Shown one piece after another: positions 1 through 57,115 of a DNA stretch of 64,000 nucleotides. A program made the translations under genes and the position numbers. Position 1 is the stretch's first letter, and each line of letters starts with the position of its first letter. The notes under the pieces were generated by a model. The model had not been told where the DNA came from. It saw nothing but the letters and a program-made list of their open reading frames with translations, and did no database searches. The stretch spans positions 16,537,527 through 16,601,526 of the forward strand of contig NC_088712.1 of assembly GCF_963576615.1 (NCBI RefSeq), given 5' to 3'. Source of the stretch: Watersipora subatra (lineage: Eukaryota; Bryozoa; Gymnolaemata; Cheilostomatida; Watersiporidae).

Positions 1-322
1 TAATGTATTCCTTGTCTAAAATAACCACATTTTCGTAAAATTAGACAGAGAAGAAAAGTATTACTTTTTTATGAACTGATATAATGTTTTCCAATAAAAC
101 CAAAGCATAGCTCACATTGCAACTTTTTTCACAGTAAATTTTTCAAAAATGAGTAGGTCGTTCAAACTCATTTGCAAATTATGAACTTTAGCCAGCCTTA
201 TAAATTAATTGTTAACTCCATTTAATCGCTGCTTGAGTTATGCTTTTTGGCAGCTTAAAATATTAATTTTACAATTGAATTTGAACACTTTGGCGCAACA
301 AATGCTTAATTTTGTGTGCCAA
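1..322. other. Unassigned AT-rich DNA left of the LTR element
   Basis: No open frame, repeat or splice structure is recognisable. The last four bases (ccaa) form one half of the target-site duplication of the LTR element that follows. Confidence 0.6.
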
Positions 323-833
323 TGTAAGATATGTCAAGCTTGACTCTTGAACATTGCGACAGTACCCTTATATGACAGTTAACATTCCATTCGGAGGGTT
401 GTGACCACAATCTGTGTACAGTGGATTAGAATTGATGTAAGAAATACCCTCATTTTATAGCTTCAATGCACTGACTGTTTGTGTATGCTCTACCATCATG
501 CTGCAAAGCACTCAGTTGCCCTCTGTGCCAATGTGAATCTCTTCTGTCTGACCGTTGTGACCTAACAAAATTATAAAAATGTTATTCATTCTTGTCTCCT
601 TAATGTATCTTGTGTTTGGCTCATTTTTCTAGTATGAATCACGTGTTTTGTGCTGTCAAAACTATATAAAAGCATGCAGTTTTATTAGATCTGCACTTGT
701 GGTTTTATAATCCTCGTACTTGTTGTCAGTCTATTAATAAACGCTCGTAAGACAAGACTCTCTCTCTATCTCTGGTGTAATTTAGGCTTTAGGAGTCAAA
801 AGCCACCTTAGGGCAGCATAGCGCGCTGTCACA
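323..833 (+). repeat. 5' LTR of the Ty3-like element
   Basis: This is a 511-bp repeat with TG...CA ends. It carries a TATA box (ctatataaaagc, about 662-673) and a polyadenylation signal (aataaa, 736-741). These mark the likely U3/R promoter and RNA 3' end. It matches 5144-5654 along its whole length. Confidence 0.92.
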
Positions 834-835
834 TT

Positions 836-855
836 TGGTGTCAGAAGTGGGATTC
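836..855 (+). promoter_or_regulatory. Primer-binding site, tRNA-Leu type
   Basis: The sequence tggtgtcagaagtgggattc starts 2 nt after the LTR. It is complementary to the 3' end of animal tRNA-Leu (TGG for the CCA tail, then TGTCAG..GTGGGATTC). tRNA-Leu priming is known in several animal Ty3 lineages. The position and a 20-nt match make this a strong call. Confidence 0.8.
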
Positions 856-897
856 TATAGAATTGATAGAATCCAAAGGACACTGGCAGAATTTGAG

Positions 898-2093
898 ATG
901 TCAGATAGAGAAGGATCACAAATCGCCCGTGATGAAGATTTGGAGTGATCTGATGCTGAAAGACCAGCAGCTGACGAGTTCAGAGATAAGTCAACGAAAG
1001 ATTTGCCGGCGTGGGAGAAGCCATTGATGAGCAGAGAGATGCCTTGGCCGGTGTAGCGCAACAGACTGGGAAAATCGAAGAGATGATCAAGCTCTTGACG
1101 ACACAAGTTGCCAAGTTGGCCGATGTTACTGGCAATGCCAAGAAAGACCACGATTTAGAGGTAAGTTTTGATATGCCTCAGCCTAGTAAAAGTGATTCAA
1201 ACTTACGAACAGAATGGGTTAAATTTGGTCTAAAATTCACAGGTAGGTCACTTGATGACGATTTCGAGAGCTTCGCCATGCAATTTGACACTTGCTGTTT
1301 ACTGCACAAAGTCTCAAAATCGTCATTTGTATTAATCCTACAGTTATACCTTAAAGATCTAGCATCGGCATACCTGAAAGACATAATTAAGACTGAAGGA
1401 AGTTCAGTTTTATAAAAGCGAGTAAAAATCCTTATGAAAAATAAATTAAACGCAGTTAAAGGAGAGCAACAAATTGCCATGGAAGTCTCTGCAGTGAGGC
1501 AGGGAGGAAATAAGACAGTCAGATAATATTATGAAAAGTTCCACAAAATAATTGCTAGTGGATCTGCGGGGGAAGAGAACCTCTATGTTCTCTTACATTT
1601 TCTAGCGGGTTTGAGGCCGGAAATAAAAGACAAAATCATGGGCATACCGGGAAAAACTCTTTCGGAAATACTAAAAGCTGTGGTTAGCGTCGAAACGGCT
1701 TTGGTGGTTAACAAAAAAGTGGCTGATGCATCTGTCAACTTCAGCAATCAAGTCAGACCTAACCCGAGTGTAAACAAACGCTTTGATAAATCAGCAAGAA
1801 AATGCTTCATATGCCAATTGCCAAATCATATAGCTAGATCCTCTGACAGAAAAACCAGTAATCTTAGATACCAGCAGCCTAGACAGGAACACCCTAATAA
1901 GATCAGGTTTACTCGGAACCAACCAGGTAAGTCACACCCTAGTCATTTCCCTAGATATAGACAAGGTAGCAACCAGAGCCAGATGCCACAATGGTTTCAG
2001 GCTTGGTTGGCCAGCCAACGCTCACAGTCACCCATACCCCAACCTCCCACCTATCAGCCCCAGGGAGCCTATGCTTCAACTGCTGTCCCTTAG
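898..2093 (+). pseudogene. Degraded gag of the Ty3-like element
   Basis: An ATG at 898 opens a frame that stops after 16 codons (TGA 946-948). Gag-like sequence resumes in another frame at 1011-1415, with a capsid-type segment around FTGRSLDDDFESFAMQF, and again at 1611-2093, with a segment around LRPEIKDKIMGIPG. The later piece holds a zinc-knuckle relic, CFICQLPNHIARSS. It follows C-x2-C-x4-H-x4-C except that the last Cys is Ser. Its Pro/Gln-rich tail is typical of nucleocapsid ends. At least two frame changes and several stops prevent a single Gag product unless the region is spliced; several consensus donor sites lie within it. Confidence 0.7.
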
Positions 2094-2604
2094 TCCACAC
2101 CCGAAACACACCCTGCCCCCATTGCTTCATCCAAACCCAACCAGGTAAGTGACAACATTACGGTATTTATGACAATATGGCTGTTGAACATGTACAGGAA
2201 CATGCGAAGCTCTCCTAGGTACAGGTAAAGGCAGGTAATGTAGAAGTAGCAGAAGTCATACCTGTGGTTCCTGTAATGATCGCTCCAGTCATAACAGCAG
2301 AGTATGCTGAGTTAGAAGTTGCTGTAGTAGAGGTGGTAGAAACATATTTACAGGTAAGCGAGACCCCTTCAAATAGTCGAATGTGGCCAACAAAAACTCC
2401 GTAAATAAACAAGAGGTCTCTCCAAATAGCCTCCCGCCAAAACACAAGGCATCAGAAACATCGAGTAAGGCCCATGTCAAAAGTTCCAAGGTAAGTTTGG
2501 ATAAGATATATGACCTCGTAACCTTTGAAGATGACACGGCTTAGCGCTCTGAGCCAGGAACTAGCACTCCTAAAGTAAACAAAGCATCAACAGGTGTCGG
2601 TTAT

Positions 2605-2993
2605 GTGAACGAGATCAAGTCATACCACCCAACTAGACCACCTAATTTATATGCATGCTCTGGTAGTAAACTGAACGTGTCACAATCTATGCTCTTCATG
2701 CTGACTTTATGTTCTTTGGTAACTCTATGCTATGCACAGGCCCCAATGATATGTCGAACGGGACATACTGTGGCAAACTTTCAACTACCTCAGTTACCAC
2801 CTTGTGTGCTGCCAGACACCACGGCAGCAAATGACCCATACAATTTGACGCTACAACTTTATGAACCTAACCTTGTGCAATATAGAAGTTCTGCTTTTCA
2901 TTGAAAAATTGTGAAAATCAAGACATTGACAATATTTCTGACTCTGACGTTAAGCAGCCTAAACATAGCTACAATTTGCGACCTAGAACCTAA
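2605..2993 (+). pseudogene. Env-like secreted glycoprotein N-terminus with frameshift, ending YNLRPRT
   Basis: A 99-codon frame contains a hydrophobic signal-like stretch (residues about 29-46, ending CYAQA). A short Cys-containing ectodomain with one N-glycosylation site follows. It stops at 2902-2904. In the next frame an open stretch reaches YNLRPRT (2970-2990) and a stop at 2991-2993; YNLRPR is common at the ends of Ty3-family polyproteins. The position after gag and near the 3' half suits an env gene, but no fusion peptide or transmembrane segment remains in sense orientation. It could instead be another captured secreted protein. The env label is tentative. Confidence 0.35.
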
Positions 2994-3232
2994 TTGACAC
3001 TTGACCTATCAAATCTCACTAGCAGACTTGCTTTGCTGAGAAATGTTAACCACGCTTATGAGGACAACGTCTCAAACAAAGACATGATCATTATCGTATA
3101 TTTAAGAAATGCATAGGTATATAGATAGTAGTTAAAACTTCAGTAAGTAAATAGATTTGTAATCAACAACCATGCGTTAAAAACAGTAGTAAATCCTATT
3201 TAATAATAATGTTGGAGAATAATGTTAAGAAA

Positions 3233-4144
3233 TTAGGCAGTTGGAATAGAATCATGGCTTCGATCAAACATAACGTCTTCTTCTTTGCTGTCAATAATTG
3301 TAGAAATATTAGATAATTGTCCTAGAGCGATTAATTGATTAGTTGTAAGTTGCTGATTATGATTCCGTCTTCTTATATACAGTAGATAGATTAATACGAT
3401 AGCAGTAATTATGATAATAGACAAAGGAGCAGCTATTGATAGTCCAAGAATCAGGAGTGAATTTGATGAATTTGTCAATGAAATAGTAGAGGAATTGATG
3501 ATTAAACTAGCAGGTAGATCTTCGATAGTAAAGTTATTGTTGGTAGAATTCATGATTTCTGTGATGGTAGGATCAGCATTAGGAGTGGTTGACGTTAAAT
3601 CAGTAGAAGAATCAGCTAAAACAAAATAAATTTGCTTATTAATACTAGACTTACCAGCTGTGCCTAGGCTTCATTAAATCCTTACTACAGCTAGCCACAC
3701 TACCAAGGCGGCGATCCAAGATGACACTTGCTCGTAAGTATTATTACAGGAACAGGGATTGGAGGGCTAATACTGAGCGATCATGCGTTGCAAAATCAAA
3801 GTAAACACAACTCTTATAATTTATCACGAAAAGGTGCATGATCGTTAGAATGTTTTTGCTACACGTGTATTGGAACCAATGCTTGTTAATTAAGTAACTG
3901 TACGTTAATTCTTATACATACCTCGTGTGATGATTAGGCGTGGATTGGAAGAAATTGCTAGTAAATCAGTGGGAAGAGTAATTTTGGTTAGTTTCGGATT
4001 TCGATGGAGATCAATGAAGCGATATGGCGGATAAGAGTTAGGATTAAGTTGGATAAAATCAAGATCAGTCAGATTTCGATTAGAACAATCAATTTTTAGT
4101 AGAGTCATGGAGCAGCAGCATAAAACCAAGAATGGACAAAGCAT
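3233..4144 (-). CDS. Antisense two-exon gene for a small single-pass membrane protein
   Basis: Exon 1 runs 4144-3922 and exon 2 runs 3615-3233. The donor is CACGAG|GTATGT and the acceptor is a pyrimidine-rich TTTTGTTTTAG|CTGATT. The join is phase 1, stays in frame and gives 201 residues. Exon 1 has a cleavable signal (MLCPFLVLCCCSMTLL) followed by an LRR-N-like start (IDCSNRNLTDL, then IDLHRNPKLTKI). Exon 2 has a Ser/Thr/Asn-rich stalk with several N-glycosylation sites, one transmembrane segment (LLILGLSIAAPLSIIIITAI onward), a basic stop-transfer (RRR) and a cytoplasmic tail of about 45 residues. It lies wholly between the LTRs and opposite to them. I do not recognise the family. The topology suggests a type I surface protein. 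A host gene caught in antisense orientation would keep its intron because genomic RNA is not spliced on that strand. Confidence 0.6.
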
Positions 4145-4404
4145 GATTCAGAAGATAAAAATGACTGTAATAGTAAATGAAAATAGTTTAAAAGGTAAAT
4201 TTTATGAACGTAAAGAAAATCTAGCTCTCTGCAGAGGTAATGATTGAGTTCCACAAAATGGCTTGTTGGATTGATTTATTTGAGAAATTTAATTATCTGA
4301 GGTTAATCTCAGTCTAAATTGGTCCTCTAAATTTGTGTGTGTAAAGAGCACACAACTTTCATTGTCAGCTGAATTAGCTGGCAGTTTCGGTTCCCCTCTT
4401 TCAG

Positions 4405-4533
4405 CAACAGGAATCTAGACACCAACATATAGAAGCAGAAGATTTCCAGCCTACGAGACCAATAGCAGTAAATTCACAGCCATCTGACAAATGGAATGAC
4501 AACATACCGCAGGACCACTCAAATCTGAGTTAA
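4405..4533 (+). CDS. Possible sense-strand 3' terminal exon
   Basis: A strong acceptor (TTCCCCTCTTTCAG) is followed in phase 0 by 42 open codons (QQESRHQHIEAEDF at the start) and a TAA at 4531-4533. Donors at 2145, 2354 and 2491 are also phase 0 in open frames upstream, so splicing from any of them would keep the frame. No protein family is recognisable and the piece is short, so chance is possible. Confidence 0.27.
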   Translation, partial: QQESRHQHIEAEDFQPTRPIAVNSQPSDKWNDNIPQDHSNLS

Positions 4534-5132
4534 GTTAAAATTTCCATTACTTCAGGGTTACGTGATTAACTTTGACACCCTCTCCGAACACTACATAAAT
4601 GATAGGTTGGTTCTAGTGAGCTATGCAGCCAATATACTTGATTTTTGAGCTACTGCCTATGGATTGTTTTGTGTTAGCCATATCTACTTGTTATGTACCA
4701 TTTTTGTGAGTGGATGGCAGTAAAACAAAAAAAAAGGAGTAATTAGAATCAAATGCTACATATGCTTAAAATTTTAATTTTTTTATAACCTTTAATTTTT
4801 CATATTATATTAGTTTTGGGTATACTGTTGTTTTTATTTTTGATTCCTAGGAAGCGACAACTTTATCTACAAGATACATGCTGAGAGCACATAGCGATTT
4901 GTGAGCCATCAACAAGATATATCAGGGGGCATCCTGTGGCGTACAGGTTTGGGTATTCGCAAAAATTACGGTGCAATGGCAGACAAACAACAAACAAACA
5001 GTTACTATACAAATCAGAAGTCATTATACAAACGATACTTCAGATATGTCAACACATGACGCCCACCAATAACCATGACAGATCAACAACCAACAACCCC
5101 TCTAGAAAAGAATTACGCCTGTGACGTCATCT

Positions 5133-5143
5133 AAGGAGGAAGG
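5133..5143 (+). promoter_or_regulatory. Polypurine tract of the Ty3-like element
   Basis: The purine run aaggaggaagg directly abuts the 3' LTR. It is the expected primer for plus-strand DNA synthesis. Confidence 0.75.
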
Positions 5144-5654
5144 TGTAAGATATGTCAAGCTTGACTCTGGAACATTGCGATAGTACCCTTATATGACAGT
5201 TAACATTCCATTCGGAGGGTTGTGACCACAATCTGTGTACAGTGGATTAGAATTGATGTAAGAAATACCCTCATTTTATAGCGTCTATGCACTGACTGCT
5301 TGTGTACGCTCTACCATCATGCTGCAAAGCACTCAGTTGCCCTCTGTGCCAATGTGAATCTCCTCTGTCTGACCGTTGTGACCTAACAAAATTATAAAAA
5401 TGTTATTCATTCTTGTCTCCTTAATGTATCTTGTGTTTGGCTCATTTTTCTAGTATGAATCACGTGTTTTGTGCTGTCAAAACTATATAAAAGCATGCAG
5501 TTTTATTAGATCTGCACTTGTGGTTTTATAATCCTCGTACTAGTTGTCAGTCTATTAATAAACGCTCGTAAGACAAGACTCTCTCTCCATCTCTGGCGTG
5601 CTTTAGGCTTTAGGAGTCAAAAGCCACCTTAGGGCAACATAGACCGCTGTCACA
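5144..5654 (+). repeat. 3' LTR of the Ty3-like element
   Basis: This repeat is 511 bp long, the same as the left copy, with TG...CA ends. It has the same TATA box (about 5483-5494) and aataaa signal (5557-5562). The target duplication ccaa follows immediately. Confidence 0.92.
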
Positions 5655-8600
5655 CCAAAATTCTGGTCTTACAGTTCCAAAAAAAATTATGAGACAAAGT
5701 GAGTTAAATTTTTATGGAAAAGCAAAATGATCAGTTGGAAATAAACATTAAACATGAAGCTTTTTATGATACTAGCAGTGAAAGTATGACACGTCACACG
5801 AGTGAGCATGATCGTTTTCATGTAAATAGAAAATAGCTATTGTACATTTTAAATTAGCTTAATGAAATCTGGGGTATTTGTCGGTTTATCACAAGCCAAC
5901 CAGCTCCAAGTAAACTTTCAGTGTAGAAATTTGTTTTTATAATTGATGAGCGGATGACAGGTCGCATGTCAAGCTTTTATCATTTTTATGTCAGCATAAA
6001 GTAACTGATGAAGTGTTTCAAATGCCCAGCTGGCAGAAATTTAATCTAACATTGACATGAATTCTGCAAGAAGTTTACATTGCTTCTAATGTATCGTGAA
6101 CCAAAAAGTAACAGTTTGTGCAAGTCTTATGAATTTTAGAATTAACTTTACAGTAGTTGTTTATAGTGAAAAATATACCATAAACTTAGACTAGAGAAAT
6201 TGCATGTCATTTAACACTTTTGTCTTTCATACATGTACTTAATTTCAATTAGGTTGATTTCCTGTTTATGTGAACTAGTTACATAGCACATAAAAAAACT
6301 AATAGAGGGTGACTTGAAACTCATTAAATATTTAAACAGGTTAATTAGGTATTTAAGCCTCGGTTGTCTGAGTGTTCAGATATTTTGTACAAAGATGACA
6401 ACTCTTAACATCAAACTCTAGCACCCTACCCTTCCATACTTGGACATAAACTTGTCGCATTATTCAACAAACATAACTTCAATCCACATGAAATTTCTGT
6501 TAACATCAATAATAAAACATTATATGACCTCCTCTCTGTCAAGTGTATAGCTTTTTATTACCTTGGATCAAAGAGACCTCCCATACCTTTATTCAGATTA
6601 TTATTCATGTGAACCAAAACTTAAGAAAAACCTACAAATTTCATCAAGTTAGACCTTATCCATGTAATTAGGTAAACTTGGAAGTAGAAACATAATCAAT
6701 TGGTATGATCCAAAATTTGTCTATAGCCAAATTTTGAAACTAATGTTTGACAGAATATGTACGAGCTAAAAAATATCACCAAAACCATTTGACTGTTTCT
6801 TAAACGAATGGTATCTATACCGTATATAATAAAAAAGTATATCAAATTTATCTTGATTGATTTTCAGTTTATATTTACTTTTCAGTTGCCGTAATTTAAA
6901 CAAGATAATGCACTTACATAGTCCAGGCAAAGTTCTGACTTCATCTGGTCTGTATATTTGTTTTATTAATCAACTGGTTTTGCTGTGAAATGAAACTCAC
7001 CCGCTCCTAATTAAATTTTATTCAAGTAAATTTTTTTTTTAATTTTTGTAATTGGTCTGAATTTATTTTATCAAATTTTTACCACTTTTAACACCAAAAA
7101 TCACTAAAAACAAAAAAAAAGACCACTGCAATGCAGCAAGGGCTTACTATATTTCAACTGTTCTGTAAATTGCAATTCAACAGAGAGCATTTATTGAACA
7201 GGTCAAAAAGGGAGCAGATATAACTACTTTGCATACATGTGCATCATATTGATTAGTAACTCTGCAGGGTCTTAACTCTGAGAAGACATTAATATGCCAG
7301 ACCTTACTGCACGGAGAAGGTTAGAAACAAGGTCTTTGTTTTTTGCAACACACAACAACGTTTTGGGAAGCTCAATTTTTTTAAGCTCTGACACAGAACA
7401 CTGAAAGACAAAGAGTTAATTTTTGAGTGAGCGGTAGATCCACAAATCAATCAAAATTGTTCTCAGCGGATCACTTTAGATAATAACTTGCTACTGATTC
7501 TGTCCAATTTATTTTATTTATTATTTATTATATTTTAATAATATATTGTTGATAACAATGATTTGCCAAACCAGATCTTTTATTTTATTTATTTGCGGTT
7601 GAATCGGCTAAAAAAAGATTTTGTCAGTGTTAAAAGTTGCTGTCTCCAATATTTAGAAAACAATATTTTGCACGATACGCAATGTTTTGCTGAATGCATC
7701 TTGCAAAGTGGATAAAAAGCAAACCAGGTATTTTTACTCGCTACAACTTGATAAGTTACTTCATTTTGCATTTTATAAAAGGCACCAAAAATGTTACAAT
7801 TATTGACTTTATTTGTATATTATTACTTTCTCTTGTAGCTTTAGGCAGCAAGCGTGATTTTCTTTCAGAGAAAACCTTTGTCATCAAAAGTATAGCTAGG
7901 TAATCATTTTTTAGCCACTCGTTAGATATCCAACTTTTAAGCAGCAAGTGCACTTTTCCTTCAAAGATATTATTATTTTGTCAACAGAGCAACTAAATGA
8001 TCACTAGCCGAATGCATGACGTTGTGTGGGTATTAAGAAAGCTATTTAAACATTTGCAGGTAACGTAGTTGCCATTGGCTGAACTCAGATAGTTTCCATC
8101 CATTTGGTGAAGCCTTTGTATCCTTTGAAGCTTACTGAGTTAGCTCGTCGCCTTCTGTATGTGAATTTCTGAGGTAAAATTTTACGTGGTAAGGATTTTT
8201 CAATGCTAGATTTTCATTGCTATAAGTGGACATACAACAAGTGGGTGTAACAACAAGACCTGAGAATTATGTATATATAGATTAGTTGTCGAAATATATC
8301 TCACAAGGCAAAAATTAGCTTAACAGGATAAAACGGAAGATTTTGCAGCCACTCACCTAGAAGCCACTCAGATGATTCACAATCATCTGTTTTGTTCATG
8401 TTGTAACACTTTTGTTGCCAGCAGGCAAATACCGAAATCTGTCATGCTGGTAATAAAATATCTGTGCTTTCTGTAGATTGAATCACAACCTCTGTAAACC
8501 TTTCATTAAAATAAGGCATCGCCTGTAATTATTTAATGCTTACATTTATCTTCACCGCTACATGTACATCTGCTAGAAAAAAATGGTAAACATTGCTGTT

Positions 8601-10032: not shown

Positions 10033-11161
10033 AAACTTTGTACTCATACGTGTGCTGACTATGTGTTCACATTTGTGCTGATAAAACTTTGTACTCATAC
10101 GTGTGCTGACTATGTGTTCACATTTGTGCTGATAAAACTTTGTACTCATACGTGTGCTGACTATGTGTTCACATTTGTGCTGATAAAACTTTGTACTCAT
10201 ACGTGTGCTGACTATGTGTTCACATTTGTGCTGATAAAACTTTGTACTCATACGTGTGCTGACTATGTGTTCACATTTGTGCTGATAAAACTTTGTACTC
10301 ATACGTGTGCTGACTATGTGTTCACATTTGTGCTGATAAATCTTTGTACTCATACGTGTGCTGACTATGTGTTCACATTTGTGCTGATAAAACTTTGTAC
10401 TCATATGTGTGCTGACTATGTGTTCACATTTGTGCTGATAAAACTTTGTACTCATACGTGTGCTGACTATGTGTTCACATTTGTGCTGACAAAACTTTGT
10501 ACTCATACGTGTGCTGACTATGTGTTCACATTTGTGCTGATAAAACTTTGTACTCATACGTGTGCTGACTATGTGTTCACATTTGTGCTGATAAAACTTT
10601 GTACTCATACGTGTGCTGACTATGTGTTCACATTTGTGCTGATAAAACTTTGTACTCATACGTGTGCTGACTATGTGTTCACATTTGTGCTGATAAAACT
10701 TTGTACTCATACGTGTGCTGACTATGTGTTCACATTTGTGCTGATAAAACTTTGTACTCATACGTGTGCTGACTATGTGTTCACATTTGTGCTGATAAAA
10801 CTTTGTACTCATACGTGTGCTGACTATGTGTTCACATTTGTGCTGATAAAACTTTGTACTCATACGTGTGCTGACTATGTGTTCACATTTGTGCTGATAA
10901 AACTTTGTACTCATACGTGTGCTGACTATGTGTTCACATTTGTGCTGATAAAACTCTGTACTCATACGTGTGCTGACTATGTGTTCACATTTGTGCTGAT
11001 AAAACTTTGTACTCATACGTGTGCTGACTATGTGTTCACATTTGTGCTGATAAAACTTTGTACTCATACGTGTGCTGACTATGTGTTCACATTTGTGCTG
11101 ATAAAACTTTGTACTCATACGTGTGCTGACTATGTGTTCACATTTGTGCTGATAAAACTTT
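10033..11161. repeat. 51-bp minisatellite, 22 units plus a partial
   Basis: The period is exactly 51 bp; the c of aaactttg recurs at 10036, 10087 and so on to 11158. Units begin aaactttgtactcatacgtg and are almost identical, with only a few single-base variants (near 10340, 10405, 10487 and 10954). The period is a multiple of three and the unit has no stop in one frame on each strand. Long open frames of about 390-410 codons therefore exist on both strands as a by-product, encoding 17-residue repeats. The paralogous site near 45.73-45.78 kb has about one unit, so the array expanded after the duplication. Confidence 0.95.
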
Positions 11162-11884
11162 GGCACATACTGATGTCATTTTGCTCGATTTCATAAATAT
11201 ACATATGCTTGTTGATGTTTGTTAGACTGCATAATCAGTAGTTGTGAAAATTTAGCTAAACATATAAAAACAATTCGTAACAGTCTGACTTCAACTATCA
11301 GCAATGTATTTAATCATTTATCTTTACTTATAATAGAATATAACACTTACTTTTTAGTTAAAATATTCACATTGTAGATATACATTGTATAATCAAAATA
11401 AGCGTGTAAAGTTCCGCAATTAATGAAAGTATTATAGCTAGCAATAGGACATGCAAAGTTATTTTTGAATAAACAACACAATGCACATGGCTATATAGTT
11501 TAGTAATAGATAACATAACCCCAAAAGGTATCCATTTGCATTTAGAAAAATTACACACTATGAGTTAAGTATATTATCAATTGAGTAGCACAAACTTGAA
11601 AAGTTACTACAAAAAAGATCAACACAGTTTTATATCAGTCTATCATGGTAATCATTAAGTTTTTGGTGATCCTTTATTCAGTAAAACACAGAAGATATCT
11701 TAATATTGTCTCCATTTACATTCACTCTTTGGATATTAGAAACCGACATTAACCCTATGATCTGTAAAGACTTTGCAAAATCCTACTTATTGTTTCAACA
11801 AAAGCAATAAATAACTCATTTAAGATTTTTATTTTTAAGCAAAGTTCTTGCTGTACAATACAAAAATTAATTTTAGCAGAGCAT

Positions 11885-14800: not shown

Positions 14801-16649
14801 CAAATAAGAAACCAAAATATGTAAGTATTTTCCCTCATTTAATAAGTTTGTTGTCACTTTTAAGCTACTAAACTAATCTAAATATCCCATTATTTCTATC
14901 ACAACCTCAACCTGGCAGTGTCATCAATCAAAGAACTAAACTCAATAATGCATATATCATGCAGACCTATATATTGTCAGTATTAGTATAGCATTGTTAA
15001 CAATCTGTGTTTGTGATGTACATAAAAAATAAATAAGGTAACATTTCACCAATAGTAATTCCCAATTTGTCCCCATTGAAGTACGAAATATGTAATAAAT
15101 TATTAAAATTAAAGTTTTTTGTTAAATTTTAAGATTTTACGTGCAGTTTACACACTGCTGTTGTACCGAGGTATATGTTTTCAACAAGCTTCTGATCAAA
15201 TTATTGTACCAGCCTAAACACTTTCAAACATATAGGGCAGATATTCAAAAAACAATGTTTAACTTTCAAATTTTGAATCATTGTTTTTGTTTTGATAATT
15301 GTCTCATAAGTCATCAGTATATTTTTATGAACTCTAGTTTCTTCTTTTGTCAATGACCAATAATATTATTTGACTATATTAACAGATATTATGAAACTTT
15401 TTATCAAAACTTGACTATGATATAATTTTGAATTATGAAATGAAATGTTAGGCACTTAAAATTTTTGCCTCCTAGGGTTTTCAAACTTACCTAACCAATG
15501 TTCTCCATCTGTATTACCAAATCCAACTTGGTAATCCGTCCAGTTTTTAAAAAAATCAATTGAACCGTTAAATCTTTTTTGGAACACAGTCCATCCATAG
15601 CCATCAATAAAGTCACACCAGACAGGAAATGGTTCACCATTTGTATGAGGTGGATTGACTTGATAAACTCCAGGGCATCTATTTCCTTGCTCGTACAACT
15701 CTTGACAATCTGTATTAACAAGAAATTTGATTTTAGTTAAAACCAACTTTGCAGATGGTTTTCTAAAGATTAGAATATAAGCTTTTTTACAGTTGTTTAG
15801 ATTAATTGGTTGTAGTGCTATCCAGTCATAGATAACCAATAATGTTGGGTGAAATTATTGGTCTAGCTTTCAGGATATTAAGGATTAATTTAATCAAAAT
15901 TTCTTGAAAATGTTTTAGAATTTAGATTACAGTTAAATTTCTAAACTTTCTGTACTGAAATATTAAACGAGTTTAATATATTACATACTTATGACTTAAA
16001 TATTTACATAGTCTTTGAAGTTGATGAACTTTGTGAATATTTTTTTTGATTGACAGGTTTTTGGTGCCTGAAAAGTTTACAAAGAAAGTATTTTTTAAAA
16101 AGTATAGGTACAATACGAGGGCACTTGATGGAATTATCAAAGTGTATAATGATATTTTTATTAAAGAAACCACTACTATACCAGTTTGATTATAGCTGAT
16201 GACAGTTAAAATAAAAAATAAGTTCTACCTTGAGGTGTTAGCATCTCACTAGTCACAGACTGGTCATTTGCTGGTTCATCTGTTGTAAGTTGTTCGCTTG
16301 TTGATTGTTTTGAAACCGCTTCTTCTGTTGCTAGACTTTGGCTTGAAGAAGGCAGAGTTGTCTCACTTCCAGCAGTGGTTCGAACTGTCAGGCACTCAGT
16401 CAAACCGTCTAGCAGTTTGCTATGAATGACTTTGCTGACTTCAAAATGAAACGGAAGTGAACTGTCATCGTAAATGCCATGAGTGGCCTCTAAGATTGTT
16501 GGACACTCATTTTGCAAAAGTTGACGAGCTGCGTAGATACTTTGTCGCAATCGAAAAAATGTTTGTCCTTTTTCGTTCACCCCAATGAGCCGCGCATCAG
16601 AAGCAGAAATCAAAATAATGAGTAATGCAAGACTTGATAAAAAGGCCAT
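11885..16649 (-). CDS. Secreted fibrinogen-related protein (FReD), copy 1
   Basis: The five exons are 16649-16229, 15709-15491, 14766-14630, 13243-13117 and 12018-11885. All have GT/AG ends and the frame is continuous for 345 residues, ending MRISRN and TAG. Residues 1-19 are a signal peptide (MAFLSSLALLIILISASDA). Residues 20-140 form a unique region ending in a Ser/Thr-rich mucin-like linker. Residues 141-345 are a fibrinogen C-terminal domain: CQELYEQG..CPGVY, then PVWCDF, GWTVFQKR, the calcium-site segment STPDRDQD, and GWWYKACNS..LNGLY. Such proteins usually bind glycans or acetyl groups in innate immunity or matrix (ficolin, FIBCD1 and mollusc FREP relatives). That role is inferred from the family. 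At the exon 4/5 join it reads NCAEIRKSGWW where most members have a form closer to NCA..Y.GGWW, which may alter the ligand loop. The copy at 46133-57032 has identical exon lengths. Confidence 0.9.
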
Positions 16650-16724
16650 TTTGGAAAGCTTAGCTCAGAATGAAGGGATCACTGATTGAACATTATTATA
16701 TAGATTCCTTGTTAAGCCCCGCCC
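16650..16724 (-). promoter_or_regulatory. Core promoter of FReD copy 1
   Basis: On the minus strand a GC box (GGGCGGGGC, 16724-16716) lies just upstream of a TATA box (CTATATAAT, about 16703-16695), about 45-75 bp before the ATG. The same layout and most of the bases recur before copy 2, which supports function. The start site is probably near 16670. Confidence 0.6.
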
Positions 16725-33424: not shown

Positions 33425-36400
33425 CTACCAGAGACCTGGGAGTTTGAGCACTCGCCTCAAGATCTTAGCTGTTCCCAATAGCACACTTTTCTGAAACTCA
33501 CCTGAGTTGATTGTTGTTGGTATTTGGGCAAGCCACATTTTATGCGCTGGTGTTATTGCGCCCAGTGCCCCAATGACTACTGGGATTACAGTTGTTCTTA
33601 CATTCCAGCATTTTTCAATCTCTTCTCCAAGAGGGAGATATTTCTCTACCTTTTATTTTTCTTTGCTGGCTATATTGTAGTCATTGGGTACTGTTATATC
33701 TGTTATAGTAGCACTCTTGTTTTCCTTGTCTACCACCACTATATCTGGTTGATTTGCTAGGACATGCTTGTCAGTTCGGATGTAGAAGTCCCAGAGGATC
33801 TTAGCGCGGTCATTTTCATTCACCTTATCAGGAGCTTCCCACCAGTGTTGTGGTTTATTAAGGCCATACTCATTACATAGACTTCTATACAACACACCTG
33901 CGACATGATTATGCCGCTCAGTGTATGCGTTTCCTGCTAGCTGCTTGCATCCACTGATGATGTGTTGGATGGTCTCAGGTGCATCTTTGCACAGTCTGCA
34001 TCTAGGATCGTCTCTAGTGTGATAGATTTTTGTTTGGAGTTGCCTTGTTGGGAGCACTTGCTCCTGGGCTGCCATGATTAGCGACTCTGTATTGGCCAAT
34101 AAGTTTCCTTTGTTCAGCCACATATACATGTATGTCTGATAAAGATTGCCAACCTTAAATAGTTGTTGGTGGTAAGCACCATGAAGAGGTTTCGTGTGCC
34201 AGTCAATTTCCTCATCATCAGGGCGTAGGTTCGTTGTAAGAGCAGCGGATTGAAATTCAGCTAGCAACTTATCTGAAATGGCCATGGAGGCTGCATATGC
34301 TTTGATGCTTTGCTCCTCTTCCTTCACTGTCTGCTGTACACTTTTGAGTCCCCTACCGCCATTTTTCCTATCAAGATACAATCTAGTAGTATCAGATTTT
34401 GGGTGGAGTGCTCCATGCATGGTCAGCAGTTTATGAGTTGCTATATCTGTTTCTTTGATGGCTTCCTCAGTCCACTTTATTATGCCTGTTGGATATCTTA
34501 TTACTGGCAGTGCATAGGTATTTATTGCCATGACTTGGTTCTTGGCATTGAGCTGGCTCCGTAAGACCTGCCGAAGGCGTTTCTTGTATTCGGTAATGGC
34601 TTTATGACGTACCTCGGCTTCGTGGTTGATGTTGCTTTGCATAATCCCCAAGTACTTGTACCCTTCTTCTATATCTTTGATGGTACCATATGGCATTCTT
34701 AGGCCATCTGTGAGCATAGAATGGCCTTTCTTAAGAATTAGCCTTCCACATTTCTCAATACCGAAGGTCATTCCGATGTCCTTGCTGTATACCTGAGTGA
34801 GGTGTATTAGCGAATCAATGTCCCTTTCTTTGTTAGCATACAGCTTGATGTCATCCATGTAGAAGAGGTGGTTTATTTTGGTGCCACTCTTAAACTGGTA
34901 CCCATATTGAGTCTCCTCCAGCATATCGCTTAGAGGGTTTAGGCATATGCAAAAGAGCAGCGGTGATGAGTCACCTTGATAGATGCCTCGCTTAATTTTT
35001 ACACTCGCCAGCTTTTTGCCATTAGCCTCCAGTTCCGTCTTCCATTTGGTCATTGACATCTTGATGAATGCCACAAGAGCAGGGTGAACATTGTACATAC
35101 TGAGGCACTCAAGTATCCAACTATGGGGAATTGAGTCATAGGCCTTTTTGTAGTCAATCCAAGCCATGGCAAGATTGGTTTGCCTTTTCCTGCTGTCTTG
35201 ACACACCGTCTGATCCACCAGTAACTGATGTTTGGCTTCTCGAGTGTTGCGCCCAATTCCTTTCCGAGCACTGGTCATATAGTGACTCATGTGCTCTTCC
35301 AGTTTGTCTGCAACTATTCCTGAGAGCAGTTTCCAAGTGGTGGGCAAGCAAGTTATTGGTCGATAGTTTTTGGGAATCGGCCCCTGCTTTGGATCTTTTA
35401 TCAGAAGTACAGTTCGTCCTTTGGTCAGCCATTCTGGATGGTCACCTTGTTCTATTAGGCATTCCATCTGCTTAGCCATTCTAGTGTGAAGTGATGTCAA
35501 TTTCTTCAACCAGAAGGCTTGAATCATGTCATGGCCAGGTGCTGCCCAGTTCTTCATACGCTGCACTCTGCACTTGATGTCCTTTTTGCTGATGGTGAGT
35601 CGTTGCTGAGCCACAGTGTGTTGATGGCCCTCTTTAAGCCTCTTCAGCCAATTTGCAGTGGTGTTATGAGTAGTCTCTTTCTCCCAGATGTCCTTCCAGA
35701 ACTTTGAAGTGCTAGATTGGGGAGGCTCAGACATTGGCCTCCGCAGTTCACCTTTGAACTGGGAATACCCTCTAGATGGATTATTGATGAACAGTTTGTT
35801 CATTCTCTTGTTATCCCGATCTTTGGTGTACCGCTTCAGTCGTGCCGAGAGCGCTACTAGCTGCTGTTTGGCAAATTCTAGAGCTTCTATTGTGGCTTCC
35901 CTTTTTTGATGCTCCAAACTGTGGTTAGATCTCTCACTGAGCCTACTAACTTTCTTGCGCAAGTCCTTGATCTTATTTTGTAGCCTCAGCTGCCAGGATT
36001 GAATGGCTTAAAGCCTTGTTGGCAGTGGCTTAATATCCATCTCCTCCAAGATGACGGTTGCTGTACTGTAGATTAAGGCATTAGTCTCACTGATTGATTC
36101 AGTTGAGATCGACTCCAGTGCCAAGTTAATGTCTTCTAACAGTTTCTTAGGTATGGCCTTGCTAACTCTTCGTAGTGGTACCCTGCTACCATAATCATTA
36201 GCAGCTGACAACTTGTTGATGATATTCTCCGCAAGCTCTCTCACTCTTGAGTCAAGGTCCAAGTGCATGTCTTCTTCAACCTGTGAGCCAACACATGATC
36301 GTGTATGTGTGACAGTGTGTGTTGACATGCACTCCTCGTTGGTTGAGGTTACTTGGGTGAACTGTTCCCTAATTTCATCTACCTCAAGTTCCGATATGAG

Positions 36401-40839: not shown

Positions 40840-43367
40840 CAGGGGTGCTCAACCTTTTTAGACATGTGATCTACTTTTATATTTGCCTGCCTTCAAAGAT
40901 CGACTAGTCTAGCGAAGCCCCGAAACAAAAAATTAAAAACAAACTTGAGCCTGTAGTGGTGAGCCTATCACCTTTATTAAGTTCCACATATATGCTTATA
41001 TAATGCAGTGATCCAGTAAGTAACATAATTTTAAAGGAAAAACATTCATTCTCTACCTTAGTGAGAAACCTGGCACTGGGAGGATGCAGCTAGTTTCTTA
41101 TAGTCAGGGTAGTAGCAGGTTGTTGCAAGCCTCATACACGCCAGTAGGTGGTCATCTGTCATGGTGGATCTGTATTTTGATTTTATTATCTTCATGTAAG
41201 AAAATGCAGATTCACACAGGTAGGTTGATCCAAAGCAGGCTGATAAATTAAAAGCACATCTTCTTATGTTTGGATACTTCTCCTCTAACAACAATCCCCA
41301 CAATTTTTCCCTCTCAGTGGTTGCCCTGGATTTCATCTCTATGTCATTTTGAAGGGAGACTATTTCATTTTCCAATGCAGTTGTATCCAGCTGAAAGAGT
41401 GCTCCCATTTTGAAGGCAATGTCCTCCACATCTATGTCTGTGGCAAATGGGAAACACATATATGTGGCAACAGGCTCAACTGATGCAAAGTCATTGAAGC
41501 GCTTGTCAAACTCTGATGAAATGCTTTGCACCTGCTGAATGTAATGTGCACTATTGAGTTCTGCAGAGGTTTTGCCCTGACGCGCAAGTTCGGAGTTCAT
41601 GTGTTGAAAGTAGCGCAAGTCCTGGCGTTCAAGCTTGGTTGAGATCAGCTGTAACTTGCGTTTAAATGCGTTCACAGAGCTGATCATGTTAATTACATTT
41701 TTGTTTTTTCCCTGCAGCTCTAAATTCAGCTCATTCAGAAGAGCAGTAATGTCAGTAAGGAAAGCCAAATCCATGAGCCACTGTTCATTTTCAAGCTGTG
41801 CATATTCCGCATGTTTAGATTGTTTGAGAAACTCTTTTACATCAGGCAATAGCTCTCTGAATCTTTCCAAAAATCTACCTCTGCTCAACCACCTCACATC
41901 TGTATGAAGCAGCAGATCTGTGTGTTCTGCGTCAGCCTCTTCCATATGAGCGCGGAAAAGTCTCCTCTGTAGGCTCCTTGCTCGAACTGAACAAACAATC
42001 TTCATGACAATATCCATCACCTCCTGCATGTTTAATACTTTCCCACATAAAGCCTGCTGGTGGATGATGCAATGATAATGAATAAAGTCTGGAAAAGTGT
42101 CATTCTGTTTGCAATGAGCTATAAACCCATTACTACAGCCCACCATAGCGGGTGCCCCATCGGTTGTAATGGAAACAAGCTTACCTAGCGGCAGTTGGAT
42201 TTTGTTAACGAACTCCATGAATGCTTGAAATATGTCTTCACCTCGTGTATGTCCTTTAAGAGGCAAGATGCAAAGCAGCTCCTCTTTTGCAGTCATGTTA
42301 TCGAACATCATTCTTATGAAAAGGCACAACTGTGCCACATCCACAGAGTCTGTTGACTCATCAAACTGAAGTGAAAAACACTCACACATGGCAATATCTC
42401 TCTGCAACTGGGCTGTGACGTTCTTCTCTATTTCCTCACATCGCCTTGTCATCGTACTTCTCGATAACTGAACGTCTTTGATTGCGGACATGATTTCATC
42501 TTTGTTTTTAAAATCCACAAACAATGAATCAGCAGCTTCCATAAATGCTTCCTTGACCATTGCTCCATCTTGAAATGGTTTCTTATGCTTGGCAAGAACT
42601 TGGCAAACTCGATATGATGCTATCTTAGCTGCTTTGCCTCTCGTATTTGGCCTGGTAAAAATAGACTGCTGTGCAGCTAGTTGCGATTTCAATTCCTTTA
42701 ATTTTATTTTCCTTAATTCACTTTGGGCAGGAAAATCATTCTCGTACCTTTTATGCATGGTTGTGAAATGCCTTTCGAGGTTACCCTTCTTAGGAAGCGA
42801 GATGATGGCTTGGCAGATGAGGCACATGCATTTAGAGTTGGAAATGACAAAGAAATAATCCTCTTCCCATTCCTTGTGGAAGTGATAGGTTTTTTGTCGT
42901 TTCAGATTTGTCTTAACACTCATTTAAGGGTTTATGTTTTTATTCAAAAAGAAAAAACGAGATCGACTGCTAGCAGAAAGCTGCATAACATTTTAACAAA
43001 AGTTATTTTGGGTGCATGAAGAACTATACACGGTTTTGTATCGAGTGCGGACCTATCGGCTTTTTCTGCGGTCCTGTGCTGGGAACTTATGAATGGCGTT
43101 CACGTGTATTTTTGTTGGTCTTGAAATACACAATCAAACACGACTATACATAAACAACGATAATAGGTAAATAATGTTATTATTAAAACTACTTTTTTAG
43201 TGCAGTAGTTTAGTAAAGTGCTGTGCAGCAATAGTAGTTGCTGCTAGTTAGTGAATAATTATTATTTTATGTTGTAATTATATGTTATCCTAAAATCATC
43301 CCGCGATCGACTGCCAAGCACTTGAAGATCGACTGGTAGATCGCGATCGACTGGTTGGGCAACCCTG
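40840..43367 (-). mobile_element. hAT DNA transposon, potentially intact (2,528 bp)
   Basis: A perfect 8-bp target duplication, gtctaaat, lies at 40832-40839 and 43368-43375. Terminal inverted repeats are CAGGGGTGCTCAACC and CAGGGTTGCCCAACC, with 2 mismatches in 15 bases. A single uninterrupted transposase frame occupies the minus strand. The motif gatcgact occurs near both ends (40898, 42961, 43305, 43327, 43345), a likely transposase-binding repeat. The duplicated segment at about 26.8 kb shows the same flanks without the insertion. Intact ends, duplication and frame suggest a recent, possibly active element. Confidence 0.95.
41058..42923 (-). CDS. hAT transposase with BED zinc finger, 621 residues
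   Basis: The protein begins MSVKTNLKRQKTYHFHKEWE. A BED-type zinc finger follows (CMCLIC ... HFTTMH, residues about 33-58). The RNase H-like core has a first acidic motif in FDESTDSVD (residues about 195-203), a second in SITTDGAPAMVG, and the CxxH-type CIIHQQALCGK. The C-terminal hATC dimerisation block contains FGSTYLCESAFSYMKIIKSK followed by TMTDDHL. The length of 621 residues is full size for this branch, which also gave rise to domesticated vertebrate genes such as GTF2IRD2-, ZBED5- and SCAND3-like proteins. It cuts and pastes the element by recognising the terminal repeats. No stop or frameshift was seen. It could be a domesticated gene, but the flanking duplications and inverted repeats argue for a live transposon. 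Confidence 0.95.
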   Translation of the reverse strand: MSVKTNLKRQKTYHFHKEWEEDYFFVISNSKCMCLICQAIISLPKKGNLERHFTTMHKRYENDFPAQSELRKIKLKELKSQLAAQQSIFTRPNTRGKAAKIASYRVCQVLAKHKKPFQDGAMVKEAFMEAADSLFVDFKNKDEIMSAIKDVQLSRSTMTRRCEEIEKNVTAQLQRDIAMCECFSLQFDESTDSVDVAQLCLFIRMMFDNMTAKEELLCILPLKGHTRGEDIFQAFMEFVNKIQLPLGKLVSITTDGAPAMVGCSNGFIAHCKQNDTFPDFIHYHCIIHQQALCGKVLNMQEVMDIVMKIVCSVRARSLQRRLFRAHMEEADAEHTDLLLHTDVRWLSRGRFLERFRELLPDVKEFLKQSKHAEYAQLENEQWLMDLAFLTDITALLNELNLELQGKNKNVINMISSVNAFKRKLQLISTKLERQDLRYFQHMNSELARQGKTSAELNSAHYIQQVQSISSEFDKRFNDFASVEPVATYMCFPFATDIDVEDIAFKMGALFQLDTTALENEIVSLQNDIEMKSRATTEREKLWGLLLEEKYPNIRRCAFNLSACFGSTYLCESAFSYMKIIKSKYRSTMTDDHLLACMRLATTCYYPDYKKLAASSQCQVSH

Positions 43368-55100: not shown

Positions 55101-57032
55101 AAAAAATAAGGTAACACTTTACCAATTTTAATTTCAAAAATTCTTCTCATTGAAGTACTTCATAATTATTAAATTATAAATAATAAAGTTTTATTTAAAG
55201 ATCTAAGAATTTATATGAAGTTTACACCCCACTGTTTTGCAGCCTGACTGTTTTACAGCCCACTGTTTTACACCCCACTGTTTTACACCCCTGACTGTTT
55301 TACAGCATATTGTTTTACACCCCACTGTTTTACAGCCCACTGTTTTACAGCCCACTGTTGTACACCCCACTGTTTTACACCCCTGACTGTTTTACAGCCC
55401 ACTGTTTTACACCCACTGTTTTACAGCCCACTGTTTTACCGCCCACTGTTTTACACCCCACTGTTTTACAGCCCACTGTTTTACAGCCCACTGTTTTACA
55501 GCCCACTGTTTTACACCCCACTGTTTTACACCCCACTGTTTTACAGCCTGACTGTTTTGTTTGTTTTTAGCTCCTATCATATTCCAGCACAGGAACTTTC
55601 TAACCTATCAAGCTGAGATTCAAAAAAATATTTTAGTTTTCAACCCTAATAATAATTTTGTTTTGATAGTTGTCACATAAGTCTTCAGTATATTTTCAGA
55701 AACATTGATTCCTTCCTAATTCTTTTTTGTTAATGAGCAACAATATCATTCAACATAATTAACTGGAACTGTAAAAGTATTACCAAAACGTGACTAGTAG
55801 AATTTTTAGTTATGAAACAAAATGTTAGGCATTTAAAAAATTAACCTAAAATGTTATTTCAACTTACCTAACCAATATTCTCTATGTATATTACCAAATC
55901 CCTCTTGGTAACTTGTCCAGTTTTGATGAAAATCAACTGATCCATTTACTCTTTTTTGAAACACAGTCCACCCACGACCATCAATAAAGTCACACCAGAC
56001 AGGAAATGGTTCACTATCTGTATGAGGTGGGTTAACTTGATAAACTCCAGGACATCTATTTCCTTGCTCATACAACTCTTGACAATCTGTATCAACAAGA
56101 AATTTGAGTTTGTTGAAACCAAACTTTGCAGATAGTTTTTTGAAAAGTAGAATATAAACCTAATCTATTTTTATGAATTAAATGGGTGTAGTGCTTTTCC
56201 TTTTCTGACAACCAAAAATGTTTAGAAAAACTAGGGTAGTTATTAGTTTATTAAATATTGATTTCATCAAAATTTCCTTGGATTACTTTTAAATATATAT
56301 GTTACACTTAAAATTTTCCAATTTGGATTGTGATACCAGAATATTAATTGACTTACATATGTGTCATACTAGTGACTTAAATATGACCATAACACTCGAA
56401 GTAGATGAGAGAGAGATATAAAAACTTTTTTTCAAATTGCTGTTTTTTGGTGCCTGAAAAGTTTACCAAACCATATTTTTCAAAAATAGTTGCAATACAA
56501 AGACACTAAATGGAATTCTCAAAATATATAATGATATTTTTGTTAAAAAAACCACTACTATACCAGATTGGTTATGGTTGATGACAGTTAAAATAAAACA
56601 TCAAGTTTTACCTTGAGGTGTTGACATCTCCCTAGTTACAGTCTGATCATTTGTTGGTTCATCTGTTGAAAGGTGTTGACTGGTTTGTTGTGTTGAAGTC
56701 GCTTCCTCTGTTGCTAGACTTTGGCTTGAAGAAGGCAGGGTAGTCTCACTTCCAGCAGTAGTTCGAGTTGTCAGGCACTCAGTCAAACTGTCTAGCAGCT
56801 TGCTATGAATGACTTCGCTGACTTCAAAATGAAATGGCAGTGCGCTGTCATCGTAAATGCCATGATTGGCCTCTAAGATTGTTGGACACTCATTTTGCAA
56901 AAGTTGACGAGCTGCGTAGATACTTTGTCGCAATTGAAAAAATGTTTGTCCTTTTTCGTTCACCCCAATGAGATGTGCGTCAGAAGCAGAAGTTAAAATA
57001 ATGAATAATGCCAGACTGGATAAAAAGGCCAT
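46133..57032 (-). CDS. Secreted fibrinogen-related protein (FReD), copy 2
   Basis: The exons are 57032-56612, 56086-55868, 54874-54738, 48754-48628 and 46266-46133. All junctions are GT/AG and the lengths (421, 219, 137, 127, 134 nt) are the same as in copy 1, giving 345 residues ending MRVTRD and TAA. The signal peptide (MAFLSSLALFIILTSASDA) and the 120-residue N-terminal region with a Ser/Thr-rich linker are close to copy 1. The fibrinogen domain has CPGVYQVNPPHTDSEPFPVW, GWTVFQKR, a conserved NCAQYWEGGWW at the exon 4/5 join and NGVYGAENQGG. The ligand-side loop is nearer to the family norm than copy 1. Introns are much longer because of a Kolobok element, an unidentified 1.2-kb insertion and a tandem repeat. 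Frames are intact, so both paralogues are probably expressed. A role in pathogen or glycan binding is inferred from the family. Confidence 0.9.
46640..47890. other. Copy-2-specific insertion in the last intron, unidentified
   Basis: Alignment with the intron of copy 1 (12.27-12.5 kb) is lost at about 46.64 kb and resumes near 47.89 kb. I saw no convincing inverted ends, open frame or known motif in the extra DNA. It is slightly less AT-rich than its surroundings around 47.05-47.55 kb. Confidence 0.35.
49168..49285 (+). repeat. Kolobok terminal inverted repeat, left
   Basis: This matches the reverse complement of about 53113-53231 with few mismatches (for example ttatttggtatcaaaagatt in both). 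Confidence 0.85.
49554..50684 (+). CDS. Transposon-borne cysteine-rich protein with P2X7 ballast-like domain
   Basis: Exon 1 (49554-49643) encodes MSNSEKLRPWRFEPDALSEE and ends at CAA|GTAAGC. Exon 2 starts after TTTCTTTAG at 49914, in phase 0. It encodes TEWCACKRCQDMPSLPECLC followed by CHY, then CLCMHPGVNEF and LRWNNYLRYHSE. The spacing W-C-x-C-x2-C...P..xEC-x-CC...C...HPG resembles the zinc-binding 'ballast' C-terminus of vertebrate P2X7 and the many invertebrate 'P2X7-like' proteins that lack the channel. Exon 2 either reads through to TAA at 50172-50174 or splices at a good GTGAGT near 50129. A downstream piece (50405-50684) with IPQSCV may be a last exon, but its phase does not fit cleanly. 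No ion-channel part is present. The function in the transposon is unknown. Confidence 0.5.
50435..50631. repeat. Imperfect palindrome inside the Kolobok element
   Basis: Arms 50435-50480 and 50586-50631 (46 bp each, about 6 mismatches) are inverted copies separated by 105 bp. Transposase homology stops exactly where the right arm begins (after ITTD), so a rearrangement here removed the catalytic 3' half. Confidence 0.8.
50574..52620 (-). pseudogene. THAP-Kolobok transposase, exons partly intact, 3' half missing
   Basis: A THAP-like start lies at about 52604-52380. It runs VCAAAKLRSTFF, then a frame change at a T8 run, then RAWSNWVKLD and YLCFRQFKDDMF, with His replaced by Gln in the last zinc position. 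An exon at 51986-51905 (DEEFVPTTEDWEEFERY) follows. Three in-frame exons follow: 51670-51331 (CHTC, CASCHQSYTWET, LLAATSLFSGG, YQQREYL), 51074-50901 (LAGDGRCDSPGHCALYRAYT) and 50747 onward (SSNTMELEGFKRC, SITTD). The GDGR.DSPGH and S-N-x-ME-x-EG signatures are characteristic of Kolobok-group transposases. Junctions have good GT/AG sites and matching phases. Homology is lost after ITTD. Not functional. Confidence 0.75.
53113..53231 (-). repeat. Kolobok terminal inverted repeat, right
   Basis: Inverted partner of 49168-49285, followed by the TTAA duplication. Confidence 0.85.
53876..53962 (+). repeat. Short interspersed repeat, copy 2
   Basis: Partner of 37340-37435, ending in the shared gttagggttcaaagggtt. 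It is absent from the matching intron of FReD copy 1. Confidence 0.5.
55229..55560. repeat. Short-unit tandem repeat in intron 2 of FReD copy 2
   Basis: About 20 units of cccactgttttacag or cccactgttttacac (15-17 bp). Some units are extended to cctgactgttttacag. The paralogous intron of copy 1 (about 15.14-15.17 kb) has a single related stretch, ttacacactgctgttgtacc. The array therefore grew after duplication. Confidence 0.93.
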
Positions 57033-57115
57033 TTTGGAAAGCTTGGCTTAGAATGAAGGGATCACTCATTGAACATTTTTATATATAGATTTCTTGTTAG
57101 GCCCTGCCCACATTT
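57033..57115 (-). promoter_or_regulatory. Core promoter of FReD copy 2
   Basis: On the minus strand GGGCAGGGC (57109-57101) precedes a TATA box (ATCTATATATAAAA, 57090-57077), at nearly the same distances from the ATG as in copy 1. The GC box has one substitution relative to copy 1. Confidence 0.6.

Follow-up and report, generated by a model that had tools for sequence, protein, structure and literature searches.

The antisense genes of deltaretroviruses, HTLV-1 HBZ among them, and ASP of HIV-1 occupy the 3' part of their proviruses. Splicing is described for the antisense RNAs of HBZ and of other deltaretroviruses, and ASP is a membrane protein (PMC10186651, PMC8622228). The gene described here likewise runs antisense to gag-pol within the 3' part of its element. 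HBZ acts as a nuclear bZIP factor, and ASP spans the membrane twice and overlaps env, whereas the present gene has a coding intron, a single-pass glycoprotein-like product and no overlap with a sense gene, and it resides in an animal Gypsy-type element. The likeness is one of kind; homology is not claimed, and Pfam and PDB scans of the antisense protein gave no significant family. The antisense ORFs of plant Retand-type elements have the same place and orientation and are kept across families, with function unknown (PMC7264820, PMC11963269, available portions). Those discussed there are nuclear or DNA-binding-like and the word intron has no occurrence in the accessible text of the two papers, whereas the gene here has an intron; the TRP28 domain (PF04195) that marks the plant proteins was absent from our Pfam scan results. 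In its manner of working the gene is like the retroviral antisense genes, and its position is that of the plant antisense ORFs, but the sequence comparisons made place it in neither group.

Other LTR elements of animals offer partial parallels. The sORF2/FAST-like proteins of the Drosophila MDG1 group are also small single-pass membrane proteins of Metaviridae elements; as described in the available part of PMC11952523 they are sense-encoded, with a shorter ectodomain, mostly an N-myristoylation motif and an unspliced coding frame, unlike the antisense gene here, which shows neither the sense orientation, nor the short ectodomain, nor the 63-107 aa length of that group. Bdelloid rotifer LTR retrotransposons likewise contain extra transmembrane ORFs (ORF3s), and the accessible text of PMC5408684 describes no antisense ORF among them. 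A chuvirus-type env/glycoprotein occurs, as here, in an LTR retroelement of the Anakin type (available portions of PMC10084718 and PMC12440569; see also PMC7642597). Those are mosquito Pao elements, and PMC10084718, in the part available, found no clear capture by Gypsy, whereas here the element is of Gypsy type and its env precedes protease and RT. Within the limited scope of the open-access PMC literature searched, no intron-bearing antisense membrane gene is reported for an animal LTR element. Probably, the present locus is an accessory gene, coding for protein and interrupted by an intron, that a Ty3/Gypsy-type lineage carries antisense between pol and the 3' LTR and that is conserved in three lineages.

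The DNA analyzed, referred to as the window, is a 64-kb stretch of the Watersipora subatra genome (C5:16537527-16601526; the searched genome comprises 784 Mb in 239 contigs). An LTR element spans positions 323-5654, with an LTR pair identical at 496 of 511 positions (97%). The outer flanks match (CCAA) and AAGGAGGAAGG stands before the 3' LTR, and therefore this is one insertion; an earlier note on this DNA had also seen common outer flanks on the two 511-bp LTRs, and two nested or separate insertions are ruled out by the matching flanks. Paired LTRs, a short target duplication and a polypurine tract are features of Ty3/Gypsy elements (Metaviridae), whose pol order of RT, RNase H and integrase is found in a relative, L016, the window copy having the pol tail alone, consistent with the earlier description of an element without pol. 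From its layout, the window copy is a non-autonomous, internally deleted derivative in which most of env is gone, pol is reduced to its tail and the 3' antisense gene is retained. We take the stretch adjoining the 5' LTR to be primer-binding-site-like. The Gag label is our assumption from position and a knuckle-like CFIC...H stretch; a Pfam scan of this remnant gave no match, and the 64-kb window contains no Rfam match or tRNA. The coordinates are collected in Table 1.

Table 1. Features of the LTR element and its antisense gene, in window positions
Feature	Position	Strand	Basis or remark
Target duplication CCAA, 5' side	319..322	+	Partner at 5655-5658; both flanks read
5' LTR, 511 bp, TGTAAG...CACA	323..833	+	LTR comparison
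Presumed primer-binding-site-like stretch adjoining 5' LTR	834..852	+	Sequence
Gag-like remnant (presumed label), two frames, 990-1415 and 1527-2093	990..2093	+	Position; 41-50% aa matches in older copies
Env N-terminal fragment	2620..2901	+	65% over 95 aa to L031; remaining env deleted
pol tail, final codons ...KQPKHSYNLRPRT and stop	2934..2993	+	L016 pol frame ends alike (KQPKHNYNLRPRT); remaining pol deleted
Exon 2 including stop codon: glycosylated stalk, transmembrane stretch (residues 135-153), basic YIRRR, acidic tail	3233..3615	-	Sequence
Intron, 306 nt, GTATGT...TTTTAG	3616..3921	-	Position and phase equal in families B and C
Exon 1, 223 nt, ends in phase 1	3922..4144	-	Sequence, family comparison
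Acceptor-like site CATTTACTATTACAG, 22 nt upstream of family-A ATG	4165..4183	-	Also kept in L016
Polypurine tract AAGGAGGAAGG	5133..5143	+	Directly before 3' LTR
3' LTR, 511 bp	5144..5654	+	LTR comparison

Elsewhere the window contains a 51-bp tandem array (10033-11162; 22 copies at 99%) that has an open frame on each strand (412 and 392 aa). Its minus strand has two similar gene fragments (15456-16664 and 55854-57047), presumably fibrinogen-like, an RVT_1 retroelement (33653-36007), a hAT-type transposase (41058-42923) and a retroelement-type feature (59627-63404) that we take to be Copia-like.

Read from the sequence, exons 1 and 2 would join through GT-AG splice sites to encode 201 residues and a stop. 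The two-exon, 201-codon minus-strand gene inside one LTR element proposed in the earlier note is borne out by the same exons and splice phase in independent insertions and in lineages at 40% and 29% protein identity. We call the window's own lineage A; protein identity to it is about 40% for lineage B (L029-L033) and about 29% for lineage C (L036, L041, L042). Proteins of all three share an N-terminal hydrophobic stretch, three to seven NxS/T motifs and one transmembrane stretch, beyond which come basic residues and a cytoplasmic tail; they start with MLCPF, MFCLL or MACIL, are 180-201 aa long and have an ectodomain of more than 100 residues. The glycosylated stalk, transmembrane segment, basic stop-transfer and hydrophobic N-terminus reported earlier can all be read in the window protein and belong to this common plan. 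The LRR-like start reported with them did not survive: LRR_4 (E 0.055) and LRRNT (E 0.37) fall short of the Pfam cut-off in the window protein, as does LRRNT in family-B proteins (E 0.0048 and 0.011; LRRNT scores are 10.9-16.9 bits where Pfam requires 25.8), and the above-cut-off LRRNT or LRR match of an LRR receptor is absent. An LRR fold was also set aside, the single-sequence model of exon 1 being uninformative (pLDDT 42.8). Pfam and PDB scans of the antisense proteins gave no significant family and no PDB relative, and a PHROGs search gave no match. The acceptor-like site upstream of the ATG hints at a possible non-coding upstream exon. Further coding exons upstream of exon 1 were rejected; the antisense ORF there is stopped in one of two family-C copies and is without frame signal.

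A DNA search of the genome with positions 3233-4144 gave 36 matches, nine of which, the window counted, are full-length or one base short at 93-100% identity. The LTR search, scoring the best 40 of 67 candidates, gave at least 30 LTR matches at 90% identity or more, forming 12 pairs, with 6 left single. Each of the 12 copies recovered with paired LTRs has the antisense gene, whole or in part. The region is whole in nine: the window, the fetched loci L009-L015 with their paired LTRs, and the C4 copy L016. In the L017/L018 pair (C11:29.993-30.008 Mb) it is split by another retroelement nested within antisense exon 2, in the L019 pair an exon 2 piece is inverted, and in the L020 pair exon 1 is partly present. 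Absence of the region from other members, which the earlier note would have counted against its reading, was not encountered among these copies, yet the gene was undetected in other env-bearing lineages. Flanks are common to L009 and the window and to L012 and L011 (12 bases compared per side), so L009 and L012 are likely duplicates and 10 insertions remain. L009 (C5:16995500-17003500), 460 kb from the window, also has the same target duplication, as expected of a segmental duplication of the window insertion, and has an insert at its 3' LTR. Target duplications vary among copies (ATAA, TATA, GCTT, AAAT, CTAA) and were found too in L010, L011/L012, L013, L014, L015 and L019; the L013 and L015 elements are inserted into satellite-like arrays.

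Splice sites are retained in all 10 aligned family-A copies, the window among them. Relative to the window copy, exonic indels are +6, -3 and a single -1 (L010), and those of the intron and flanks include 1, 4, 5 and 17. The gene is full-length in four of the seven independent whole-region copies (window, L011, L013, L016) and broken in the other three, by a one-base deletion in L010, a CTG start and a stop in L014, and two stops in L015. Older A-like copies (L021-L028) have 65-72% DNA identity, and many have stops.

The window protein found at least 96 matches in the genome, grouped as 66 loci, with both exons in 28; in 18 of these loci env was matched on the other strand no more than 10 kb upstream, and in one the env match is oddly oriented. 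A second search, with a family-C protein, found at least 70 matches in 44 loci, 23 of them with both exons; both six-frame searches scored limited candidate sets. Intron place and phase 1 agree in A, B and C, with donors G/GTATGT or G/GTAAGT and acceptors TTTTAG, TTGCAG and TTTCAG. Exon 1 length is 1 mod 3 in 10 of 10 loci, each with one acceptor option. Seven of the 10 encode 180-210 residues (the tail is altered in L030), and the three truncated ones (L031, L032, L033) are all of family B, of which five copies were fetched. The gene of lineages B and C is antisense between pol and the 3' LTR, in elements with env in unbroken frames of some 2,500 codons, and LTR pairs enclose it in all three lineages. 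In L029 a 491-bp direct repeat (99%; 3554-4043 and 5178-5668) encloses the antisense gene and covers the exon 1 start. Seven family-C-like gene remnants, all on the minus strand, about 85-185 kb apart and mostly with stops, lie at C5:1569615-2426706 and may reflect an old element caught up in a large tandem duplication.

The hosting elements include copies with virus-like frames. L016 has identical LTRs (588/588) with ATAT on either side, env and pol in one uninterrupted 2549-codon frame that ends at the pol end, and both antisense exons open; its frame contains RT (288-448), RNase H (538-641) and integrase (749-915) and ends in YNLRPRT. The LTRs of a family-B copy are identical (659/659), and a family-C copy is enclosed by a 413-bp repeat (99.8%) plus 60 bp (100%), its LTR ends being approximate. 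L031 has a 574-aa frame with a Pfam match to Monjiviricetes_fusion (E 8.9e-10), and a gag-asp_proteas frame comes after it; env matches lie within stop-free frames of up to at least 2609 codons. We infer the element order Gag-like, Env, protease, RT, RNase H, integrase. An arrangement in which a chuvirus-type Env precedes protease-RT-integrase within a single frame of about 2,500 codons recurs in this Gypsy-type lineage on C4, C9, C8 and further contigs (L016, L031), and is an unusual gene order.

Evidence for a protein product comes from the comparison of L041 with L042 in family C, where dN/dS is 0.13 in exon 1 and 0.29 in exon 2 and the non-synonymous deficit has p values of 5.5e-7 and 6.3e-5. 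In the six-frame control of this pair no frame but the antisense one is free of stops throughout the two exons in each copy, and its pN/pS is the lowest of the six (0.23 and 0.40); the mirrored sense frame is next-lowest (0.40 and 0.44) but has stops. The pol tail of the two loci has pN/pS of 0.17 in its own frame. Exon 1 has no indels between them and exon 2 has one of 3, whereas those of the intron are 20, 5, -7, 1 and -5. The family-B pair L029 and L030 gave ratios of 1.08 and 2.09, from 5 and 8 changes. The dN/dS comparison among copies suggested in the earlier note was also made among the pol-less family-A copies, where six non-autonomous copies with 18 synonymous and 36 non-synonymous changes gave a non-significant ratio of 0.63 (p=0.08); with L016 added the ratio is 0.55 (p=0.008). 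In exon 2 of the near family-A copies the sense frame has pN/pS of 0.44 versus 0.55 for the antisense frame. These copies were dropped as sole proof of selection, given that p value and an equally low sense frame. As a rough guide, a neutral simulation at 4-5% divergence, assuming one frameshift per 15 substitutions, left 42-50% of frames stop-free and 6-10% intact. Since related elements with virus-like frames keep the gene under selection, it appears to be a genuine accessory gene, as opposed to a frame open by chance. The earlier suggestion that this passenger could be a main reason for the element's persistence is unsupported, because the gene came from fuller relatives and selection in the pol-less family is not significant.

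The env search, which scored the best 76 of 662 candidates, gave at least 79 matches, merged to 73 loci, and the gene was detected within 10 kb in 31. By env identity to L031, it was detected in 12 of 18 loci at 90% and over, 5 of 6 at 70-89%, 1 of 2 at 67-69%, 1 of 13 at 62-66%, 11 of 16 at 47-61% and 1 of 18 at 40-46%; L033, tallied as gene-less among the 73, holds a damaged gene. Read directly, 3' regions have the gene in 2 of 2 cases in B (both damaged), 3 of 3 in C, none of 3 in lineage D (env 62-66%), and none of 3 in lineage E (env 41-46%), where the place was set by offset with the pol tail absent from view. As the env of D is nearer to those of A and B than is that of C, it is likely that the gene was lost in D or exchanged between lineages. 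The L032 element has identical 659-bp LTRs, env in a stop-free 2532-codon frame and a truncated antisense gene; it has recently moved in this state, so an intact gene is unnecessary in cis for recent movement. A young, sense-intact copy with a broken gene, together with gene-less env-bearing lineages, argues that the gene is accessory and not essential.

It is formally conceivable that a chance open frame was caught in a decaying element, and several copies are indeed broken and the non-autonomous copies alone show no significant selection; this is extremely improbable, as the family-C comparison, the six-frame control and the conservation of splice sites and phase over lineages contradict it, and we reject it. 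What is conserved might instead be a regulatory RNA read in antisense, or an RNA signal of the sense strand, with the frames incidental. The sequence upstream of exon 1 is conserved as well (72-77% between L041 and L042, against 76-78% in the exons), and the accessible parts of PMC10186651 and PMC7264820 describe some retroviruses and transposons as regulated by antisense RNAs. We consider an RNA quite unlikely, because the constraint is frame-specific, with a third-position excess, a stop-free state solely in the antisense frame and exon indels only in threes, unlike the intron, and because the domain plan is unchanged at 29% protein identity.

If a protein is made, it could still be essentially that of a captured host membrane-protein gene, for instance a receptor decoy, held in antisense, and the intron and the weak LRRNT-like start would suit such an origin. 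The earlier note had left host capture and an evolved antisense surface protein side by side. Splice sites, frame and selection over three lineages favor the latter, whereas the host paralogue sought with the window and C-family proteins was not recognized: both searches, with limited candidates scored, returned two-exon members or remnants alone and no host gene of greater length, and neither a Pfam family above cut-off nor a PDB relative was found. Capture is on this evidence unlikely. The product might also be a second fusogen or cell-to-cell transmission protein akin to the sORF2/FAST-like proteins of insect LTR elements, since it is a small single-pass protein with a basic patch past the membrane stretch and is retained in env-deleted copies. 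Against this, sORF2 proteins as described in the available part of PMC11952523 are 63-107 aa, sense-encoded and with an ectodomain of about 30 residues, versus 180-201 aa, antisense and more than 100 residues here, and the fuller elements possess Env already; a fusogen is distinctly improbable.

Under the accessory-gene reading, which concerns the gene family and makes no claim of expression for the window copy, the antisense transcript would begin in or near the 3' LTR or in the approximately 1 kb between the 3' LTR and exon 1, and host splicing would unite the two exons. The predicted product, about 180-200 residues long, would be a type I membrane glycoprotein whose ectodomain is short and whose cytoplasmic tail is conserved. 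The intron would persist in the element because reverse transcription copies the sense-strand RNA, which fits the earlier note's argument that a retroelement can retain an intron only if this lies antisense to its genomic RNA. Tentatively, the product may serve as an accessory membrane protein of the resident provirus, whose target, in the secretory pathway or at the surface of the host cell, would be a receptor or Env; it might, for instance, limit re-entry or immune recognition.

More speculatively, and with considerable doubt on our part, a conserved class of spliced antisense genes for membrane glycoproteins may belong to animal Gypsy-type proviruses with a chuvirus-type Env, a class that predates the lineage split, manages the provirus-host interface through receptor or Env control, and is trans-complemented and hence losable. 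Its contribution could be measured in the young copies that occur naturally, some of which have the gene intact and some not. Conserved antisense genes have so far come from a few vertebrate retroviruses and from plant LTR elements. If our reading is true, animal Gypsy-type elements would contribute a distinct variant, a selected, intron-bearing antisense gene for a membrane protein, and this gene would show a route by which an intron can persist inside a retroelement.
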